A stretch of 64,000 bases of DNA from assembly GCA_904397895.1 (NCBI GenBank), contig CAJFOZ010000068.1:62001-126000 (forward strand). Direction: 5' to 3'. Origin of the DNA: an uncultured Clostridia bacterium (GTDB lineage Bacteria; Bacillota; Clostridia; Oscillospirales; Acutalibacteraceae). Below the pieces are notes generated by a model, which was given only the letters and a program-made list of their open reading frames with translations, made no database searches and had not been told where the DNA came from. Shown here in pieces: positions 41,121 through 53,177 of this stretch. How positions within the stretch are numbered: position 1 is the first letter of the stretch; each line of letters begins with the position of its first letter. Position numbers and translations under genes: made by a program.

Positions 41121-41768
41121 TTATTTCAATAGACGGAGCAAAATAGGAGTTATCTCTGGGACGGACTGGACGGTATAATCGGCCTTTTTAGCTTCTGATG
41201 GGTTAAAACCATAGAGGCATCCCACCGAAGGGATATGGTTGGCACGGGCGGCTTCGATGTCAAAGATGCGGTCCCCCACCATCACGGCTTGGGACGGCGT
41301 GAGCCGCTGGAGTAAAAGCTTTAAGGTGGCGCATTTGTCCAGGCCGTCCACCAAATGCTGGATGTGGTCGATGCGTTCCATAAGGCCTAGGGCCTTTAAA
41401 ACGGCGGTGATATATCGCATGGACGCATTGGAACACACCGCTGTTTGAATACCTGCCCGATGTAGATCATCCAGCATCTGAGGGACGCCGTCGTAATGCC
41501 GGCCCAAGGTCTTCATAGCGGCGTCTTCCAGCTGGGATACCCGGCGGATATATTGCCGCTGGGCCTCGGGATCCCGCCCTGGAAGCATGGTATCCCTACA
41601 GTCTTCCCACCGCATGCCGTAGGTGGATAGGATAAATTCCCGCGTTTGGACTTCTTTTGGCGCATCGAATTCCTTTAACGCTTGCAGGTGAGCAGGTACA
41701 GAAAAAAGATCGGTGCGGTTTAAGGTGCCGTCCAGATCAAAGACGGCCAACGGCTGATGTATCGTCAT
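41121..41768 (-). CDS. HAD-family phosphatase (Gph-like)
   Basis: 'AVFDLDGTLNRTDL', 'MVGDRIFDIEAARANHIPSVGCLYGF'. Confidence 0.88.
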   Translation of the reverse strand: MTIHQPLAVFDLDGTLNRTDLFSVPAHLQALKEFDAPKEVQTREFILSTYGMRWEDCRDTMLPGRDPEAQRQYIRRVSQLEDAAMKTLGRHYDGVPQMLDDLHRAGIQTAVCSNASMRYITAVLKALGLMERIDHIQHLVDGLDKCATLKLLLQRLTPSQAVMVGDRIFDIEAARANHIPSVGCLYGFNPSEAKKADYTVQSVPEITPILLRLLK

Positions 41769-41789
41769 AAAAAATTCCTCCGCAGCGCA

Positions 41790-41830
41790 AAAGCCCCAGC
41801 AGCACAAAAAGCTGCTAGGGCTTATTTTTC
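41790..41830 (-). terminator. Intrinsic terminator of the nifS-nifU unit
   Basis: Minus strand aagccctagcagc...gctgctggggctttt. Confidence 0.6.
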
Positions 41831-41835
41831 ATTTC

Positions 41836-42264
41836 TTAGTGCAGGTGGCAGGCGTCGCAGTCCTCAATCACGCCTACGATGGGGGTGGGATCGATGCCTT
41901 TGCGGGTGTAGTAATCCGAAATGGCCGATTTAATGGCCTGTTCGGCCAACACTGAGCAGTGCACCTTCACAGGGGGAAGGCCGTCCAGAGCCTCCATCAC
42001 GGCCTTGTTGGTGAGCTTGAGAGCCTCCTGGATGGTTTTCCCCTTGACCAGTTCAGTGGCCATAGAGCTGGTGGCGATGGCTGCACCGCAGCCGAAGGTC
42101 TTGAATTTTACATCGGTGATGACGTCATCCTCCACCTTGATGTACATCTTCATAATATCGCCGCACTGGGGATTTCCCACTTCGCCGACGCCGTCGGCAT
42201 CGGCGATCTCGCCTACGTTGCGGGGATTGGAAAAATGGTCCATAACCTTTTCACTGTATGCCAT
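41836..42264 (-). CDS. nifU: Fe-S cluster scaffold NifU/IscU-like
   Basis: 'MAYSEKVMDHFSNPRNVGEI...GNPQCGDIMKMYI...FGCGAAIATSSM...VHCSVLAEQAI'. Confidence 0.94.
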   Translation of the reverse strand: MAYSEKVMDHFSNPRNVGEIADADGVGEVGNPQCGDIMKMYIKVEDDVITDVKFKTFGCGAAIATSSMATELVKGKTIQEALKLTNKAVMEALDGLPPVKVHCSVLAEQAIKSAISDYYTRKGIDPTPIVGVIEDCDACHLH

Positions 42265-42299
42265 GATGATAACCTCCTAATATCAGATATTAAAAACCG

Positions 42300-43481
42300 T
42301 TAAGAATTGTTTTTCACAATGCGTTCCCACAGAGGGGACATAGCCCGCAGCCGCTCCACAATGGGGGGGAGGGCTTCCAGAATGGCGTCCACATCCTCTT
42401 CCGTATTAACGTCGCTGAGGCTGATGCGCAAAGAGCCATGGGCGATCTCATGGGGAAGGCCGATGGCCAATAGTACGTGGCTGGGATCCAAAGAACCCGA
42501 GGTGCAGGCCGACCCGGACGAGGCGGCGATGCCCTTTGCATCCAGCATCAGGAGGAGGGATTCCCCCTCGATGCCTTCAAAGCAGAAATTGGCGTTGCCA
42601 GCCAAACGATGCTGGCGGTCGCCGTTTAAGCGGGAACGGGGAATTTGCAGTACGCCGTCGATCAAACGGTCCCGCATGGCTTGGATGCGTGCAGTGCGGC
42701 CGGGGATATCGGCGGTTGCCTCCTGGATGGCGGCGCCTAACCCTACAATACCCGGGACATTTTCGGTACCAGCTCGGCGGTTAAACTCCTGGGCGCCGCC
42801 GTCGATGAGGTTGGGGAAGCGCAGCCCACGGCGGCAGTACAAGGCTCCCACGCCTTTGGGCCCGTGGAATTTATGGCCCGAAAGGGATAAAAGATCGATG
42901 TTCTGTTCCTTGACGTTGATATCCACCATGCCGATGGCTTGGACAGCGTCGGTGTGGAACAAGACGCCCTTGTCACGGCAGATGGCGCCGATCTCCGGGA
43001 TGGGCTGGATGGTGCCGATCTCATTGTTGGCGTACATGATGCTGACCAGGGCGGTGTCGGGACGGATGGCATTTGCCACGTCCTCGGGCTTTACAATGCC
43101 GTTTTCATACACAGGCAGCAGCGTCACTTCAAAGCCTTCCTTTTGGAGGGATTCCATGGTATGCAGCACGGCGTGATGCTCAAAGGCACTGGTAATCAGA
43201 TGCTTCTTGCCTTTGGCAGCCAGGGAATGGGCGATGCCTTTGATGGCCCAGTTGTCGGCCTCGGAACCGCCCGACGTAAAGAAAATTTCAGAAGAAAGGG
43301 CGCCAATGGCGTCGGCCACCTGCTGCCGGGCACGGTCTACCCCTTCCCGGGCCTCCTGCCCGACATTATATAAACTGGAGGGATTGCCATAAAGCTCGGT
43401 GAAATAGGGGAGCATTGCCTTGACCACCGATGGGGCAGTACTGGTGGTAGCGGCGTTGTCTGCATAAACGATGCGGGTCAT
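42300..43481 (-). CDS. nifS: Cysteine desulfurase NifS
   Basis: '[12 protein letters not shown]', '[17 protein letters not shown]', '[18 protein letters not shown]'. Confidence 0.95.
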
Positions 43482-43647
43482 AATTCTTCACCTCAAATTT
43501 TAGGAAGTTTAGGTGGGGGAAGACAATCGGATATCGTCCAACCTACCTACTAGGTTTGTATTCCTTGTGTTTAATATTATACCAAAACAGTAGGATATTC
43601 AAGCGTTACACAAACAAAAAGAAAAAATTATCGTTTTGACTAGAAAA

Positions 43648-44082
43648 TTACACGTTTTTAGAAGCCATTACAGCCAATTGATCACATCGTTCGTTTTCTG
43701 GATGGTTGGCATGTCCCTTGACCCACACCAGTTCCACTTGATGCTTGTCCAGAAGCGCCAGAAGCTGTTCCCACAAATCGGGGTTGAGGGCGGGTTTGCC
43801 GTCGCCTTTTTTCCATCCACGGGCCTTCCAGCCCTTGGCCCATCCTTTGGTGACGGCGTCGATGAGATATTTGGAGTCGCTGTAAAGGGTGACGTCACAA
43901 GGTTCCTTGAGGGCCGATAGGGCCACAATGGCAGCCGTCAGCTCCATACGGTTGTTGGTGGTGTGTTTCTCCCCGCCGGAGAGCTCCCGTTCTACCCCTT
44001 TGAACCGCAAAATAGCGCCGTATCCGCCGGGGCCGGGATTCCCGGAACAAGCGCCGTCTGTAAAAATATCCACATGTTTCAT
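43648..44082 (-). CDS. rnhA: Ribonuclease HI
   Basis: '[25 protein letters not shown]', '[15 protein letters not shown]', '[17 protein letters not shown]'. Confidence 0.95.
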
Positions 44083-44264
44083 CCAGTAAAAGACGCTCCT
44101 CTCCATCATTGTGCGCACAAAACAGCAAAATAACAGTTTTTATTATACACAAGAACCAAACGCTTCACAAGACGCATCCTTGAACTCTTTTCCATGGGCC
44201 GGTATGATGGCGGCCTGGGTGGAAATAATAAGGGAAAATAATTGCCGAAAGGATGTGCGCATAG

Positions 44265-46622
44265 ATGAAAGCAGTGATTATGGCAGGAGGAGAGGGAAGC
44301 CGGTTGCGTCCCCTGACGTGCGACACCCCAAAACCGATGACCCGATTGTGCGGACGTCCTGTCCTGGCCTATATCTTGGATCTGCTGGCACGCCATGGAT
44401 TTGACGAGGCGGCCGTTACGTTGCGGTATTTGCCCGACGCCGTCACCGATTGGCTGGAGGAAGGCGTCTGGCACTTTAAGAAACGGGAGATTAAGCTACA
44501 CTTTGTAGAGGAGGATCGTCCCTTGGGCACAGCGGGAGGGGTCAAGCACGCCGCCGACTGGTATGACGACAGCTTCCTGGTCATCAGCGGCGACGCCTTG
44601 ACCGATTTTGACCTGTCCGCCGCCATGAAGTTCCACAAGGAGAAGAGGGCGGCGGCCACCCTGCTGGTTAAGGAGGTCAAGGATCCCAGGGAATATGGCC
44701 TTGTAAACTTCGATGAGGAAAACCGCATCACCGGGTTTTTAGAGAAGCCGGGATGGTCCCAAGCCAGCACCAATACCGCCAACACTGGCATCTATATCTT
44801 GGATCCCAGTGTACTGACCCTTATTCCCGAAGGGCAAACCTATGACTTTGGCAAACAGCTTTTCCCTTTGATGCTCCAAAAAGGATTGCCGCTTTTTGCC
44901 TTCCCCTGCGATGGGTACTGGTGCGATATTGGGGACCTGGACACCTATCTTTCTTGTCAGCAGGATATACTCATGGGGAAGGTATCCTGTACCTTGCCGC
45001 CCCAGGCAGAGGATGGGATCTATTGTTCAGGAAGCATGCCCCAGGGCAATTATCAGTTGGTACCTCCGGTCTACATTGGAGAAGGGGTAACCATCGGCTC
45101 CGGCGCCATGGTGGGGTCCGGATCGGTATTGGACGACCATTGCAATGTGGGCAAAGGGGCCAGCATCAAATCGTCGGTCATGCTGCCGGGGGCCTATGTA
45201 GGGGATCGGGCCTCCTTATGCGGGGCACTTTTGGGCCCGGCTGCGTCGGTCAAACGGGCGGGATCCATGTTTGAGGGATCGGCCGCCGGCGCGGGAAGCG
45301 TAGTAGGGGAACGGGCTACCGTGATGCCAGGCGTGCGCATCTGGCCGGGAAAACAGGTGGAGGACGGATTGGTACTCAGGGAAAACCTAAAGTTCGGATC
45401 CCTCCACATGGAATTATTCGACGATGAAGGCATCGCCGGGGAAACCGGGGTGGAGATCACGCCGGAATTCTGCGCCCGGCTGGGCACGGCCATCGGCAGC
45501 CTGGTGCCGTCCGGACGGATAGCGGTTTCCTACAGCTCTGACCAAGGAAGCAAATGCTTATGCCAGGCGCTGGTAGCGGGCATCCTATCCACAGGAGCCA
45601 ACGTGCTGGACTTCGGCATGGGGTTTGAAGCGGAACTCCGTTATCTCACCGGGTTTTATGAGGCGCAGCTGGGAATCTTTTTATCCGGCGGGCTCAAGAC
45701 ACGTATTGTCGTCCTAGAGGAAAAAGGGCTTCCCCTGACCCGTGGACTGGAGAGGGATCTGGAGAGCAAGATGCAGCGTGGGGAATTCAAGCGCTGTAGT
45801 TGGGAAAACATCCAGAGCGCATCGGTACTCCAGGGCGGAAGGATCACCTATCAGAAAGAACTGATGGCTCAGGCGCCGGAGGGGCTTTCCGGCCTATCGG
45901 CCGGCGTCAAATCGGCCTGCCGTCAGGCGGGAGAGGTGCTGAAGCAGGCATTAAAACAGCTGGGCTGTGAAAAGGGCGGATTACAGTTCCACATCGGCAA
46001 TTCCGGTCGGACGGCGGCGGTATTCGGGGAAGAGGTAGGATACGTCTGGCCGGAGAAGGTGCTGGCCCTATGCTGCCTGGACGCCTTTGAACAGGGCATG
46101 GATGTGGCCCTTCCCAGCGATGCGCCCCGTATCATCAATTACTTGGCCCAGCGGTATGACCGGCAGGTGCTGCGTTATCTGGATTGCCCGGTGGAAGGAT
46201 GCGATAGGGAAGCACGTGAACTAGCCGGCAAACAGCCTTGGGTGCGGGATGGCTTGATGATGACGGTACGCCTACTCAGTCTGATGAAACGGCGCCGGTG
46301 TTCTTTGGGGGAACTTTTGGAAGAATTGCCGTCCTTTGCCGTGTCGTCCCGGTCGGTGGTGTGCCACGGCAATCCGGGGGAGGTCATGCGCAGTTTGTCG
46401 GAGGCCGAGCGGGGACGTCAACTGTCCAGCGAGGAGGGGATCCTCTTGCCGGTGGGGGATGGGCAAGTATTGGTCCGCCCCTCCATCCGGGGGAAAAGCC
46501 TGCGCCTCCAGGCCGAGGCGGATAGCTATGAAACAGCCAACGAACTATGCGGCGGTTTAGAACGTCTGCTGTTTTTGCACATGAAACAATGTGGGTTCCA
46601 GGATAATGGTAATCTACTATAA
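44265..46622 (+). CDS. Sugar nucleotidyltransferase (mannose-1-P guanylyltransferase-like) fused to degenerate phosphohexomutase-like domain
   Basis: 'MKAVIMAGGEGSRLRPLTCDTPKPMTRLCGRPVL' plus left-handed beta-helix region; C-terminal domain aligns to PMM/PGM with altered motifs. Confidence 0.88.
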   Translation: MKAVIMAGGEGSRLRPLTCDTPKPMTRLCGRPVLAYILDLLARHGFDEAAVTLRYLPDAVTDWLEEGVWHFKKREIKLHFVEEDRPLGTAGGVKHAADWYDDSFLVISGDALTDFDLSAAMKFHKEKRAAATLLVKEVKDPREYGLVNFDEENRITGFLEKPGWSQASTNTANTGIYILDPSVLTLIPEGQTYDFGKQLFPLMLQKGLPLFAFPCDGYWCDIGDLDTYLSCQQDILMGKVSCTLPPQAEDGIYCSGSMPQGNYQLVPPVYIGEGVTIGSGAMVGSGSVLDDHCNVGKGASIKSSVMLPGAYVGDRASLCGALLGPAASVKRAGSMFEGSAAGAGSVVGERATVMPGVRIWPGKQVEDGLVLRENLKFGSLHMELFDDEGIAGETGVEITPEFCARLGTAIGSLVPSGRIAVSYSSDQGSKCLCQALVAGILSTGANVLDFGMGFEAELRYLTGFYEAQLGIFLSGGLKTRIVVLEEKGLPLTRGLERDLESKMQRGEFKRCSWENIQSASVLQGGRITYQKELMAQAPEGLSGLSAGVKSACRQAGEVLKQALKQLGCEKGGLQFHIGNSGRTAAVFGEEVGYVWPEKVLALCCLDAFEQGMDVALPSDAPRIINYLAQRYDRQVLRYLDCPVEGCDREARELAGKQPWVRDGLMMTVRLLSLMKRRRCSLGELLEELPSFAVSSRSVVCHGNPGEVMRSLSEAERGRQLSSEEGILLPVGDGQVLVRPSIRGKSLRLQAEADSYETANELCGGLERLLFLHMKQCGFQDNGNLL

Positions 46623-46766
46623 TTTAGATCATATTATAGAATAAAAATCAGATGAGTTAAACAAAGATGATGGATGCGTCGCCAAAGGGAAGGAAGAAAA
46701 ATCGTAGTTTATGCCGAGATTTAGGAGATAAAAGGGTACGGTGCGTTACGCTCAAATTTCAAGCAC

Positions 46767-46795
46767 TTGACAGGATTTGAGCGAGAGGTTACAAT
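46767..46795 (+). promoter_or_regulatory. Promoter of the RNase J transcript
   Basis: TTGACA-17 nt-TACAAT. Confidence 0.7.
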
Positions 46796-46801
46796 AATCG
46801 T

Positions 46802-47119
46802 ATTGTACGTGTCCGGTTGAAGTTATCTCAAAGTGTGATTTCGGCATCCGCCTGCTGAGGGCAGGAAGCGAGCGCCTGAGGGCGGCTCTTCTTCCTTTCT
46901 TTGATTTGGCGACGGTTGATGGCCGGTTTAAACAGGTGTCCAGCGGAACGGATTGTAGCTGCGCCCCTGTACTTCTCACTTTGGATATGTGTGAAAGAGA
47001 ACGGATAATTCAATAGTATTTGGAGAAAGCGCCTCGGCCTAGCTCTCGTTTTTTTGAGAAACGCAGGTGAGAGGCTAGGGAAAGTGCGGCTTTCTTGAGA
47101 CATTTGGAGGTTAGTATTT
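46802..47119 (+). promoter_or_regulatory. ~320-nt structured 5' leader of RNase J gene
   Basis: Hairpins at 46863-46896 and 47038-47079; no supported ORF on the plus strand. Confidence 0.5.
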
Positions 47120-49054
47120 GTGACACCTGAAATTAAAAATGCCTTGTTGGGCTCCAGTTCGTCCAAGCAGGAGGAAAAAAACGCCCCTGCCTCCCAGCCC
47201 AAGAAGAGGACAAGCAAGGCCTCGGCAACTCCTAAGCCGAAGGCAACCAGTAAAAAAGAGAAGCCGGCTTCCAAAAAGGACGGTAAGGGAAAGGACCAAT
47301 CCAAATCATCCCCAAAGCAGGGCAAGAATGCCAGTGCCAGCCGGCGGAACCCCCGTGGGAAACAGGACAAACGGTCCCGTTCTGCGGCCAAGGAGCAAAA
47401 GCCGGTTCGGATTTATTATTTGGGCGGCTTAAACGAGATCGGCAAAAATATGACGCTCTATGAGTGCGGGGACGATATGTTCATTGTGGACTGTGGGCTT
47501 GCCTTCCCCGATGACGATATGCTGGGCGTTGATCTGGTCATCCCGGACTTTACCTTTGTGGAGCGGAACAAGGATAAGATCCGCGGTGTGGTGCTCACCC
47601 ACGGCCATGAGGATCACATCGGTTCGCTGCCCTATCTGCTCAAGCAGGTCAACGTCCCTGTGTACGGCACCCGTTTGACATTGGGCCTAGTAGAGGGAAA
47701 ACTACGGGAACACGGTATTTTAAATAAAGCAAAGCTCAACGTCATCCATCCGGGCGACGTGGTGCAGATGGGCTGTATGTCAGTGGAAGCCATCCACGTC
47801 AATCACTCCATCCCCGACGCAGTGGCATTTGCCATCAAGACCCCGTCCGGCACCATTGTCATGACCGGCGACTTTAAGATCGATTGTACCCCCATCCAAG
47901 GGGAGATGATCGATTTGGCCCGTTTTGCCGAGCTGGGCAAGGAAGGGGTCCTGGCCCTGATGGCCGATTCTACCAATGCCGAACGCCCGGGCTACACCAA
48001 ATCGGAACGGTCGGTGGGAGAGAGCTTCGACTCCCTCTTTAAAAAGGCGGAACATCGCCGGATCATCATTGCCACCTTTGCATCCAACGTGCATCGCGTT
48101 CAGCAGATCATCGACGCGGCGGTGCATTACGGCAGGAAGGTGGCCGTTTCGGGCCGCAGCATGGTCAACGTTGTCAACATCGGCATGGAGTTGGGATACC
48201 TGGATGTGCCGGACGGCGTGCTGGTGGACATCGATGTGTTAAACCGTTATCCCAAGGACCAAGTGGTCATCATCACCACCGGCAGCCAGGGGGAACCCAT
48301 GTCGGCTTTAAGCCGTATGGCCATGTCGGACCACCGCAAGGTGGTGGTGGGGCCGGACGATTATATCATCATCTCGGCCAACCCCATCCCTGGCAATGAA
48401 AAGACGGTGGGACATGTAGTCAATGAGCTGATGAAACACGGCTGTGAAGTTGTATACGAAAAGATGTATGAAGTGCATGTGTCGGGCCACGCCTGCCAGG
48501 AGGAGCTCAAGATCATGTTGGGCATTGTAAAACCCAAGTTCTTTATTCCTGTCCACGGCGAGCAAAAGCATCTGCACAAGCACATGACTTTGGCAAAAGG
48601 GATGGGGATCCCTGCCGACCACATCTTGATTTCCGAGATCGGCAAGGTGGTGGAACTGACCCCTAACAGTATGAAGGTAGTGGGCACCGTTCCGGCCGGC
48701 CGGGTGCTGGTGGACGGCCTCGGCGTAGGCGACGTAGGAAGCATCGTGCTGCGGGACCGCAAGCATCTGGCGGAGGACGGACTCATTGTGGTGGTGGCCT
48801 CCATCGATGCAGAATCGGGCTTTGTGGTATCCGGACCGGACATCGTCTCCCGTGGCTTTGTGTATGTCCGGGAATCGGAGATACTGATGGACGATGCCAA
48901 ACGCCTGGTTCGCCGGGTGTTAGAGGACTGTGCGGACAAAAATGTCCGGGAATGGGGCGCTATCAAAAACAGGGTGCGGGAGGATTTGTCCCGCCTGCTG
49001 TACGAGCGGACCAAACGCAGTCCCATGATCCTGCCGATTATTATGGAGGTTTAA
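47120..49054 (+). CDS. rnj: Ribonuclease J with ~90-aa Lys/Ser-rich N-terminal extension
   Basis: 'LTHGHEDHIGSLPYLL', 'MTGDFKID', 'HVSGHACQEELKIMLGIVKPKFFIPVHGE'; GTG start. Confidence 0.93.
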   Translation: MTPEIKNALLGSSSSKQEEKNAPASQPKKRTSKASATPKPKATSKKEKPASKKDGKGKDQSKSSPKQGKNASASRRNPRGKQDKRSRSAAKEQKPVRIYYLGGLNEIGKNMTLYECGDDMFIVDCGLAFPDDDMLGVDLVIPDFTFVERNKDKIRGVVLTHGHEDHIGSLPYLLKQVNVPVYGTRLTLGLVEGKLREHGILNKAKLNVIHPGDVVQMGCMSVEAIHVNHSIPDAVAFAIKTPSGTIVMTGDFKIDCTPIQGEMIDLARFAELGKEGVLALMADSTNAERPGYTKSERSVGESFDSLFKKAEHRRIIIATFASNVHRVQQIIDAAVHYGRKVAVSGRSMVNVVNIGMELGYLDVPDGVLVDIDVLNRYPKDQVVIITTGSQGEPMSALSRMAMSDHRKVVVGPDDYIIISANPIPGNEKTVGHVVNELMKHGCEVVYEKMYEVHVSGHACQEELKIMLGIVKPKFFIPVHGEQKHLHKHMTLAKGMGIPADHILISEIGKVVELTPNSMKVVGTVPAGRVLVDGLGVGDVGSIVLRDRKHLAEDGLIVVVASIDAESGFVVSGPDIVSRGFVYVRESEILMDDAKRLVRRVLEDCADKNVREWGAIKNRVREDLSRLLYERTKRSPMILPIIMEV

Positions 49055-49206
49055 GGGCCTCCCGGCGGGAGAAGGAAAGGCAGGTGACGGCTGTATCACT
49101 GCCTTTTCGTGTCTATGTCCATTTTGGTGGGCAAGCGTCTAAAAAATAGATCGGTGCTGGGCCTATACGGCCCAGATAGCCGTTTTTTAGGTAGGGAAGG
49201 TTTAGG

Positions 49207-51198
49207 ATGAAAAAGCATATCCAGTTGCTAACTGTAATTCCTATTGCACTTTTGGCTGTGTTAGCGATTATGACACTGATCACTTGGTTTTGGAACCAGT
49301 ACATATTTATCGCCTTTGCCGCATTGTTTGCCGTAGCGGCGTTTGCCACTATTTGGCTCAGCGTCCGGTTCCAGCATCATTTTTATCGTTATCTCCAGAA
49401 AATCAGCCGAAGCCTGAATATGACTGAGCAGAACGTCCTCAACCGTTTCCCACTCCCTACATTGGTTTTGGGCAGCGACACCAAGGTGGTTTGGTACAAT
49501 GACCTTTTCCGCCAGCAGGTGTTGCTGGGAAGGGATATATTTGGCGGGAAATTTTCCCGCCTGCTTCCCAACCTGACGGTGGAGGACATGGTGCAAAAAC
49601 CGGTCTCCATCAAGCTTGAAGGCCGGTATTACACCGTCTACAGCGCTAAAACAGAGAAGGAAAACAGTTTGTTATATACCCTTTATTTTGTGGACGACAC
49701 TACGCTGAAGGCCACATATGAAGAGTATCACAAAAGCCGGCCGACGGTGGCGTTGGCGGTCATCGACAATATGGAGGAATTGCTCCAGACGGCCAAAGAC
49801 AGCGAACGCGCCCAAATCCAGGGGCAGATTGAAACCATCCTAGAGCATTGGATCGGCAAGACCACCGGCTTTTTCCGCCGCCTTGGCAATGACCGGTTCC
49901 TTATTGTGATGGAGGAGCGGCATTTGGCGGAGGCCGTCAAAGGCAGGTTCTCTGTGCTGGACCGGGTGAGGGAAGTGACGGCGGGCGGCCGTATGAGCGC
50001 CACGTTGTCCATCGGCGTGGGCCATGGCGGAGAATCCTTCCACGAGTGCGAAGAGATGGCCCGCCAGGCGTTGGACATGGCCTTGGGGCGCGGCGGTGAT
50101 CAGGCCGCTGTACGCAGCAAGGACGGATATGAGTTTTATGGCGGCGTATCCAAGGGCGTGGAAAAACGGACCCGGGTGCGCAGCCGTATTATTGCATCGG
50201 CATTGTCGGAATTGATCGACGGCAGCGGCAATGTGCTGATTATGGGGCATAAGGGGTCAGATCTGGATGCTTTAGGCGCGGCGGTAGGCGTCTACCGGGC
50301 AGTGGTCAGCCGGGGAAAGGATGCCCGCATTGTGGCCAACCGCAAGACGTCCCTGGCCCAGTCGCTGCTCCGCCGCATGGACCAGGAGAATATGGGCAGG
50401 GCTCTGGTGGAGCCGGAGGATGCCTTGGACCTCATCGATGACCAGACCCTCCTGATTGTGGTGGATACCCACCGTCCCGATTTCTTGGATTCCATTGAGG
50501 TGTACCGCCGGTGCGAACACGTGGTGGTCATCGACCATCACCGCAAGATGGTGGAGCACATCGACAATGCCGTCATCTTTTTCCATGAACCGTTTGCCTC
50601 CTCGGCCTGCGAGATGGTTACGGAATTGCTTCAGTATATGACAAACCCCGGTCTCGGACGATTTGAGGCGGAGGCACTATTAGCCGGCATTATGCTGGAC
50701 ACCAAGGATTTCGTATTCCGTACCGGTGTACGGACCTTTGAAGCGGCGGCGTTTTTGCGCCGTAAAGGAGCCGATACGGTGGCGGTTAAGAAGATGTTCT
50801 CCGGCAGCGTGGATTCCTATCAGAAAAAAGCCATGATGGTGACCGAAGCAAAAATCTATCGCAACTGCGCCATCTCATGCAGCGTCCTTTCAGGGGACGA
50901 TATGCGCATCAGCGCTGCCCAGGCGGCGGATGAACTGCTCAATATCGACGGGGTGGACGCCTCCTTTGTGCTTTACAGTGAAAACAATGTGGTGTTTATA
51001 TCCGGCCGGTCCATGGGCCTTGTCAACGTCCAGATCATCATGGAGTCCATTGGAGGCGGCGGGCATTTGACCATGGCAGGGGCGCAGCTTTCGGGCGTCA
51101 GCTTGGAAGATGCCAGGCAGCAGCTTCTGAAGGCTATCGACGTCTACCAGGAGAACCGCGCCATCGAATCAAGGGGGGCAGAGGGGAAAGAAGGTTGA
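49207..51198 (+). CDS. gdpP: Cyclic-di-AMP phosphodiesterase GdpP-like (DHH/DHHA1, degenerate GGDEF, PAS)
   Basis: 'GHKGSDLDALGAAVG', 'VVDTHRPDFLDS', 'VVIDHHRKMVEHIDNAV', 'SIGGGGHLTMAGAQ'. Confidence 0.92.
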   Translation: MKKHIQLLTVIPIALLAVLAIMTLITWFWNQYIFIAFAALFAVAAFATIWLSVRFQHHFYRYLQKISRSLNMTEQNVLNRFPLPTLVLGSDTKVVWYNDLFRQQVLLGRDIFGGKFSRLLPNLTVEDMVQKPVSIKLEGRYYTVYSAKTEKENSLLYTLYFVDDTTLKATYEEYHKSRPTVALAVIDNMEELLQTAKDSERAQIQGQIETILEHWIGKTTGFFRRLGNDRFLIVMEERHLAEAVKGRFSVLDRVREVTAGGRMSATLSIGVGHGGESFHECEEMARQALDMALGRGGDQAAVRSKDGYEFYGGVSKGVEKRTRVRSRIIASALSELIDGSGNVLIMGHKGSDLDALGAAVGVYRAVVSRGKDARIVANRKTSLAQSLLRRMDQENMGRALVEPEDALDLIDDQTLLIVVDTHRPDFLDSIEVYRRCEHVVVIDHHRKMVEHIDNAVIFFHEPFASSACEMVTELLQYMTNPGLGRFEAEALLAGIMLDTKDFVFRTGVRTFEAAAFLRRKGADTVAVKKMFSGSVDSYQKKAMMVTEAKIYRNCAISCSVLSGDDMRISAAQAADELLNIDGVDASFVLYSENNVVFISGRSMGLVNVQIIMESIGGGGHLTMAGAQLSGVSLEDARQQLLKAIDVYQENRAIESRGAEGKEG

Positions 51199-51246
51199 TT
51201 TTTCCCCCAAGACCCGGTATAATTTGGAGAAAAGGAGGCGTTTTTC

Positions 51247-51693
51247 ATGAAAGTGATTTTGAAAGCCGATGTCAAAGGTGCTGGAAAAAACGGTGAATTG
51301 GTCACCGTTTCGGATGGATATGCCCGTAACTTCTTGTTCCCCCGGGGCCTGGCGGTGGAAGCCAGCCAGCATGCCATCCACCAGTTAAAGGATAAAGAGG
51401 CGGCGGCCAAACGCCGTGAGGAACAGAAAAAGGCCGAAGCCCAGGAGACTGCCAACCGCATTGCCGACAAGACTGTAAAGATGACGGCCAAAGCCGGCCA
51501 GGGCGGCCGCCTGTTTGGTTCGGTGACGGCCAAGGAAATTGCCGAAGCGGTGGCAAAACAGTTGGATATTGAGGTGGACAAGCGCAAGGTGGAGATTTCG
51601 GGGGATATTAAATCCTGCGGCACCTATGAGGTAAAATTGCACTTGTATCCCGGCGTATCGGCCCGTGTGTACGCTATGGTCACCGAGGAATAA
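51247..51693 (+). CDS. rplI: 50S ribosomal protein L9
   Basis: '[39 protein letters not shown]'. Confidence 0.96.
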
Positions 51694-51806
51694 ACTAGTT
51701 TTTTACATTGTAGCATTGTCTAAATTTGACGGCGGATTACCTGCCGTCAAATTCATTTTACCCTGTTTTTATCAGGATTTTATAGGATTAGAAAGGAGAA
51801 CCATCG

Positions 51807-53177
51807 ATGAGTGCACCATCCTTCAATACCGGGGCCGACGGCCTTAATTTGCCGTACAGCCTGGAAGCGGAACAATCAGTGTTGGGCGCCGTTCTCATCG
51901 ATGCATCCTGTTTGATCACCGTGCGCAGTATCATCCGCAAGCCGGATTATTTCTATTTGGCCCAGCATCGCGCCATCTATACCCAGATGTGCATGCTGGA
52001 GGACATGCGCAAACCGGTGGATTTTGTCACAGTGCTGGAGGCCCTCAAGGCGGCGGAAGTCTACGACGAGACATCGGGGAAAAGCTATCTCACCCAGCTG
52101 GCCCAGATGGTGCCGTCGGTGGCCAACGTGGCCGCCTATGCTGCCATTGTGCGGGATAAATACGACGTGCGCTCTTTGATCGCCGCATCCCGGGAGATCG
52201 TGGATTCGGCCGCCGACGGCCAGTCGGAGGCAGGGGAACTGCTGGATGCGGCTGAACAGAAGATCTATGATATCCGCCAAGGCCGCAACAACGGTGAAAT
52301 GCGCCATATCGGAAGCGTCATTGTGGAGACCTATGACCACCTCCACAAACTGAGCACCGACGAAACCGGCCAATATGCCGGCGTTTCGTCTGGATTCTCC
52401 GGCGTGGACGCCATTACCACAGGCTTTAATAAATCCGACCTTATCATCGTTGGCGCCCGCCCTGGTATGGGCAAAACCAGTTTTGCCCTCAATATCGCCC
52501 ACAATGTCGGGGTGATCCAAAATAGGACGGTGGCCTTTTTCTCCCTGGAGATGTCCAGCATGCAGTGCGTGATGCGGATGCTGTCGTCGGAGTCCATGAT
52601 CCCCGGGCCCAAGCTGATGACCGGCCGTCTCAGCGATGAGGAATGGAAATCCTTTGCAAGCGCTGCCTCCATGCTGCACAATGCCCCCATCTATTTTGAC
52701 GATACCTCTTCTATCACCGTCCCGGAGATCAAGGCAAAGCTCCGGCATATGAAGGGCGTGGAATTGGCCATTGTGGACTACTTAGGCCTGATGGGCAGTG
52801 GCAGACGCATTGAAAACCGCGTCCAGGAGGTCTCGGAAATCACCAGATCCCTGAAGGTCATGGCCAAGGATCTTAACATCCCGGTCATTGTATTGGCGCA
52901 GCTGTCCCGTGGCAGTGAACATCGCTCCGAACATCGCCCGCAGCTGGCCGATCTGCGCGATTCCGGCTCCATTGAGCAGGACGCCGACGTGGTTATGTTT
53001 TTATACCGCAGCACATATTATAAGGATGGGGAAGAAGAGCAGCAGGATCAGAATCCCAACAGCGCCGAGCTCATCATAGCCAAAAACCGCCATGGCGCTG
53101 TGGATACCATTCCCCTCCACTGGGATGGGAAACACACCCGGTTTACGACACAGGAGTTTGGTCGCCGTGATGGATAA
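51807..53177 (+). CDS. dnaB: Replicative DNA helicase DnaB
   Basis: 'GARPGMGKTSFALNIA', 'LPYSLEAEQSVLGAVLID'. Confidence 0.96.
   Translation: MSAPSFNTGADGLNLPYSLEAEQSVLGAVLIDASCLITVRSIIRKPDYFYLAQHRAIYTQMCMLEDMRKPVDFVTVLEALKAAEVYDETSGKSYLTQLAQMVPSVANVAAYAAIVRDKYDVRSLIAASREIVDSAADGQSEAGELLDAAEQKIYDIRQGRNNGEMRHIGSVIVETYDHLHKLSTDETGQYAGVSSGFSGVDAITTGFNKSDLIIVGARPGMGKTSFALNIAHNVGVIQNRTVAFFSLEMSSMQCVMRMLSSESMIPGPKLMTGRLSDEEWKSFASAASMLHNAPIYFDDTSSITVPEIKAKLRHMKGVELAIVDYLGLMGSGRRIENRVQEVSEITRSLKVMAKDLNIPVIVLAQLSRGSEHRSEHRPQLADLRDSGSIEQDADVVMFLYRSTYYKDGEEEQQDQNPNSAELIIAKNRHGAVDTIPLHWDGKHTRFTTQEFGRRDG

Follow-up and report, generated by a model that had tools for sequence, protein, structure and literature searches.

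What is the function of a phosphohexomutase fold whose catalytic motifs have been lost, when the sugar-1-phosphate nucleotidyltransferase (NTase) to which it is fused has retained all of its own? This question is raised by one gene in the window (i.e. the whole 64,000-nt stretch of DNA that was analyzed), which was described in the original prediction as an NTase joined to an apparently dead phosphohexomutase domain. The evidence for all claims made here regarding the fusion protein is computational. The probable answer is that the NTase is linked via a left-handed β-helix to a non-catalytic mutase fold that serves as a binding, scaffolding or regulatory module with a separable function. The coordinates of the features are collected in Table 1.

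Table 1. Positions of the fusion gene, its domains and motifs, and the conserved downstream genes, in window coordinates.
Feature	Position	Strand	Remark
Complete fusion gene, NTase/left-handed β-helix/pseudo-phosphohexomutase	44265..46622	+	ATG start, 785 aa
NTase domain, aa 1-236	44265..44972	+	Pfam PF00483, E 3.5e-48
NTase signature GGEGSRLRPLTCDTPKP	44286..44336	+	Intact
Left-handed β-helix (hexapeptide) domain, aa 237-365	44973..45359	+	PF00132, 3 stretches
Pseudo-phosphohexomutase region (PGM/PMM-like, four-domain), aa 382-775	45408..46589	+	Profile and model
Degenerate phosphoserine loop GIFLSGGLKT (TASHNP position)	45672..45701	+	Gly in place of the catalytic Ser
Degenerate metal loop HIGNSGR (DGDGDR position)	45990..46010	+	Alignment
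Degenerate phosphate loop RPSIRGK (RPSGTEP position)	46476..46496	+	Alignment
RNase J gene, conserved downstream neighbor in Clostridia	47120..49054	+	Gene order
DHH-type (GdpP-like) phosphodiesterase, rplI, dnaB	49207..53177	+	Names by sequence resemblance

Architecture of the fusion protein

Pfam matches in the protein comprised NTP_transferase (residues 2-236), hexapeptide stretches (the best at 269-302) and PGM_PMM_I (383-508, E = 4.5e-9); of PGM_PMM_IV, a weak trace only was detected. When a profile built from 52 homologues was compared to solved mutases, the whole C-terminal region was covered (E about 1e-60), and a broader profile of this region, built from 29 members, matched the T. 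kodakarensis PGM/PMM with an E-value of 7.6e-105. The AlphaFold model of the fusion protein had a mean pLDDT of 91, featured regular short strands in the β-helix domain, and was matched in its C-terminal part to archaeal PMM/PGM by Foldseek; because the pTM was 0.58, the arrangement of the domains in this model is uncertain. By its four-domain fold and its full-length homology, the C-terminal region belongs to the α-D-phosphohexomutase (aPHM) superfamily. The NTase, β-helix, and PGM-like domains are collinear with those of cd05805-type fusions, and homology to members of that family runs from end to end. The accession (“MPG1_transferase” in CDD) comprises NTP_transferase/LbH/PGM-like fusion proteins. 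The architecture is a known type, not a local oddity. Misplacement of the gene by the draft assembly was ruled out: a single-contig congener (G679) has it in the same ten-gene order.

The NTase half was predicted to be intact, and it is: the GGxGxRLxPLTxxxPKP signature, the catalytic Asp residues of SGD and WxDIG (WCDIGD in this protein), and the Lys of EKP are all present. These catalytic positions are retained in about 187 of 189 homologues. The best NCBIfam model for the window protein was mannose-1-phosphate guanylyltransferase, at 211 bits (below its cut-off of 440). In other phyla, GT4 glycosyltransferases, GH57/GH77 glucan enzymes, and true PGM/PMM genes are among the same-strand neighbors of the fusion, a setting that would fit a function of the NTase in sugar-nucleotide metabolism. 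The notion that the organism encodes no other UDP-glucose or glucan pyrophosphorylase was discarded, as GalU-like and GlgC/GlgD-like genes are located elsewhere in the genome. A separate 322-aa protein (G000:C15, L004) combines an apparent N-terminal winged helix with an NTP-transferase domain similar to LicC-type cytidylyltransferases.

The mutase active site

The window protein was aligned to the T. kodakarensis mutase and to the genome's own GlmM. A Gly occupies the phosphoserine position, the Asp triplet of the metal loop has become G, S, and R, the catalytic Lys is replaced by Val and the Arg of GxRG by Ala, and the sugar-binding GExSGH loop is absent. The phosphate loop has kept R, P, and S but carries I-R-G-K instead of GTEP. 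None of the four elements characteristic of an active aPHM (the Ser, metal, sugar, and phosphate loops) was found whole. The catalytic residues were also sought elsewhere in register, and none were located in MAFFT, HMM, or hhalign alignments. The original prediction therefore held up: the homology to mutases is real, the catalytic residues are missing in register, and every peptide that it quoted lies no more than a few bases from its stated position. All three motif changes that it had listed (SGGLKT, HIGNSGR, and RPSIRGK) were recovered, with the R-P-S of the last surviving. It had proposed structure prediction and alignment to solved mutases as checks, and had named Ser and Mg-loop residues displaced in register as contrary evidence; the former returned an aPHM fold with no working active site, and the latter were looked for by alignment and not found. 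Judged from these alignments, the C-terminal fold is very probably non-catalytic. Three further mutases, two of them with canonical motifs, are encoded in the window genome; together with the PGM/PMM neighbors of the fusion loci in other phyla, they indicate that mutase chemistry is available elsewhere.

Distribution of the family and loss of mutase residues

In the window's order, 76 of 147 genomes had a match to the fusion (some to GlgC-type paralogues only); in the phylum, 171 of 300 had one at E ≤ 1e-60. The all-phyla set contained 80 loci, which, according to the record titles, included Actinomycetota, Chloroflexi, Armatimonadota, Cyanobacteria, Eremiobacterota, Elusimicrobia, and Deltaproteobacteria; Campylobacterota also carry a homologue. 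Up to three matches to the family per genome were observed in G430, G439, G600, and others, and one of the G600 copies (L109) lacks the NTase Arg and Lys.

A set of 190 homologues represented Bacillota, both within and beyond the window's order, as well as other phyla; every one of them retained at most three of seven key mutase residues. Because no homologue exceeded this number, the entire family has the look of a pseudo-mutase; this status appears to extend across bacterial phyla rather than being peculiar to the window protein. In the majority, the third Asp of the metal loop is Glu, and the Arg and Ser of the phosphate loop are Leu and Asp, respectively; most members have a changed sugar loop or none at all, and the phosphate loop of most is of an acidic LPDxEEP type. 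Outside Bacillota, the loops have mostly been recast in one way (TASHNP to hVRxSPxDP, DGDGDR to DxxGE[RK], GExSGH to GDxxGGFIFP, and RPSGTEP to LPDPEEP). A Ser occupies the phosphoserine position in 45 of 85 other-phylum members, compared to Gly in the window, so some residual phospho-chemistry may persist in those members. In the window's order-level lineage, erosion has gone further than in the other phyla, and the phosphate loop is basic, not acidic.

On haloarchaeal and Methanohalobium plasmids, adjacent but separate glmM-like and glmU-like genes match the two halves of the fusion, and this is possibly a pre-fusion arrangement.

Selection on the pseudo-mutase

A single pair of sequences, the window gene and that of a single-contig congener (L203, 93% identical), was used for dN/dS estimation. 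Values of 0.024, 0.056, and 0.048 were obtained for the NTase, helix, and pseudo-mutase, respectively, and 0.028-0.079 for the pseudo-mutase subdomains; these figures are approximate because dS was near 1. The pseudo-mutase is under strong purifying selection and is not decaying freely. Among standalone copies of the domain (see below), dN/dS was 0.04-0.23.

Retention of the pseudo-mutase after loss of the NTase

A new observation is that, in some gut-type Clostridia, loss of the NTase has left the pseudo-mutase in place on at least three occasions (in genus g44, in genera g102 and g500, and in genus g162). In g44, all five genomes encode the pseudo-mutase alone, as a protein of about 410 aa with its own start, preceded in most by a Shine-Dalgarno-like purine run. 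A relative in the same family (G027) retains the fusion with a damaged NTase signature (GGKHPR, and QAA for PKP). In another family, the pseudo-mutase stands alone in g102 (12 genomes) and g500 (one genome), whose sister, g185, has fusions without the NTase signature in the members examined; in three of these, the NTase was not recognized by Pfam and the helix and pseudo-mutase were still present. The third case, g162, features standalone copies in three genomes and a full fusion in a relative of the same family. As a fusion with a decayed NTase is the sister group in two of the three cases (G027 and g185), the pattern suggests that the NTase was lost stepwise. In the g185 loci L050, L241, and L242, the NTase and mutase active sites are both dead, the ORF is intact, and it adjoins RNase J. 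The standalone loci are L224-L228, L244-L256, and L266-L268, several of which are too diverged for the Pfam cut-offs.

The domain tree, which was built quickly and contains some long branches, requires three separate changes, which are forced by well-supported branches. A single clade of all standalone lineages was rejected in the AU test (p about 1e-9), as was a union of the second and third (p = 0.011). A hidden NTase partner was also considered. A search of the standalone genomes for an NTase-helix orthologue elsewhere yielded GlgC-level matches (about 1e-11 to 1e-27) or none, the exceptions being the decayed NTase halves of the g185 and G027 fusions themselves; as controls, intact fusions scored 1e-107 and 1e-118, and the window genome's own GlgC scored 3e-24. 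Some of the standalone assemblies are incomplete and could hide partners; several reach 96-99% completeness, and G294 consists of one contig. Apparent splitting of the gene in G699 and G033 could be traced to stretches of N and the end of a contig and was not fission. A standalone copy is still predicted to adopt the aPHM fold (pLDDT 83.5; best Foldseek matches 9du5, 3pdk, and 1wqa).

Gene neighborhood

In the window (41121-53177), the conserved order is fusion, rnjA, GdpP-like gene, rplI, and dnaB, with rnhA, nifS-like, and nifU-like genes divergent upstream of the fusion; the order downstream of RNase J is shared by several relatives. RNase J lies directly downstream in 25 of 33 loci at the order/family level, in 11 of 22 at the class level, and in all 18 standalone loci of g44, g102, and g500. 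The adjacency was not seen in the g162 standalone loci, in any of 27 further loci from the phylum, or in any of 78 loci from the all-phyla set. In the window, the interval from the fusion gene to RNase J contains a promoter-like site (TTGACA-17-TACAAT, 46767-46795, 11/12); co-transcription of the two is thus not required.

Proposed explanation and alternatives

An archaeal-type PMM/PGM was probably fused to an NTase and then lost catalysis. In the fusion, the pseudo-mutase may tune or position the NTase; its separable function would probably be exercised via a protein partner or a ligand, and the domain would have been retained for that function where NTase activity was dispensable. Repeated retention without the NTase argues for a role separable from NTase catalysis, and persistence of the pseudo-mutase next to a dead NTase, or after deletion of the NTase, weakens a role that purely serves that enzyme. 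The suggestion in the original prediction of an allosteric sensor or binding module is incomplete if read as serving the NTase alone. A purely cis-acting allosteric sensor of the attached NTase (e.g. for feedback by a hexose phosphate or an NDP-sugar), akin to a fused GMPPA, is unlikely given the lineages just described, despite the permanence of the fusion in most of the family, the near-universal integrity of the NTase, and the precedent of GMPPA: this non-catalytic paralogue is reported to bind GDP-mannose and to regulate GMPPB (PMC11228364). Loss of the NTase might, however, be tolerated for reasons unrelated to the function of the pseudo-mutase. Tentatively, the pseudo-mutase may constitute an autonomous regulatory family with a function in trans in Clostridia, possibly together with RNase J or in c-di-AMP turnover. 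On that view, the trans function made the live half of the enzyme superfluous, and this half was dropped on at least three occasions.

In a narrower form of the scaffolding or regulatory explanation, the pseudo-mutase would be a protein partner of RNase J or of the DHH phosphodiesterase/c-di-AMP system. The frequent RNase J adjacency favors it, as does the precedent of an aPHM, GlmM, which inhibits the c-di-AMP cyclase CdaA/DacA through direct binding (PMC8573169, PMC6368335). However, conserved gene order alone is weak evidence, the adjacency is missing in g162 and outside Clostridia, and the promoter-like site separates the two genes in the window; this form is doubtful, and the RNase J and c-di-AMP ideas, drawn from gene order and the GlmM-CdaA analogy, should be treated as leads only. 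It is highly improbable that the domain is a vestige on its way out: the faster evolution and further motif loss in the window's lineage would fit, but every subdomain has a low dN/dS (0.03-0.08), the fold is predicted by AlphaFold with high confidence, and it was the NTase, not the pseudo-mutase, that was lost in three lineages. Hardly credible is a still-active mutase with rearranged residues, because the metal, phosphate, sugar, and general acid/base residues have all been replaced together, the window protein has no phosphoserine Ser, and other mutases are present in its genome. Retention of the Ser in many family members would speak for activity, as would an annotation tradition in which S. 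coelicolor SCO1388 “appears to be a bifunctional enzyme” (PMC5982138) and the cd05805 accession is placed among enzymes “specific for other sugars” (PMC9426568). In the former study, SCO1388 was additionally deleted, and the double mutants were the same as the single mutants (PMC5982138).

The reading of the mutase fold as a non-catalytic module bears on a widespread bacterial family that is currently handled as a bifunctional mutase/pyrophosphorylase. Should the family indeed be a pseudo-mutase, its members ought no longer to be counted as PMM/PGM, and the annotations and pathway models in which they are would have to be corrected. Nature offers a series, from active fusion through dead-NTase fusion to pseudo-mutase alone, that provides ready material for learning the purpose of the dead mutase.

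Comparison with known systems

In the open-access literature, coverage of which was incomplete, the family was nowhere found to be described as a pseudo-mutase; in a 2022 paper, phosphoryl transfer is ascribed to all known members of the phosphohexomutase superfamily (PMC9426568). The cd05805-type fusions, e.g. SCO1388, have the same three-part architecture and size as the window protein, and Streptomyces homologues align with it end to end. Published accounts regard them as bifunctional or catalytically active, whereas the mutase half in the window appears inactive by sequence, its lineage having lost further residues that other phyla retain. The nearest solved relatives of the full C-terminal domain are archaeal-type PMM/PGM (T. 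kodakarensis 9du5 and P. horikoshii 1wqa), which carry TASHNP, DGDADR, GGExxGG, and RASGTEP; none of these is whole in the window. For the NTase-helix half, the nearest are cyanobacterial tlr0611 (8x7s, a UTP-glucose-1-phosphate uridylyltransferase, i.e. of the UDP-glucose type) and GMPPB/plant VTC1; all are without a mutase-like domain. GlmM, as an inhibitor of CdaA, is an aPHM fold that works via protein binding, but it is also a live enzyme, unlike the pseudo-mutase, and the parallel is a precedent only. GMPPA resembles the window domain, by analogy only, in that it is homologous to an enzyme of a sugar-nucleotide pathway, is itself dead, and acts by binding; it is, however, a dead NTase in trans, whereas the present family features a dead mutase, usually in cis.
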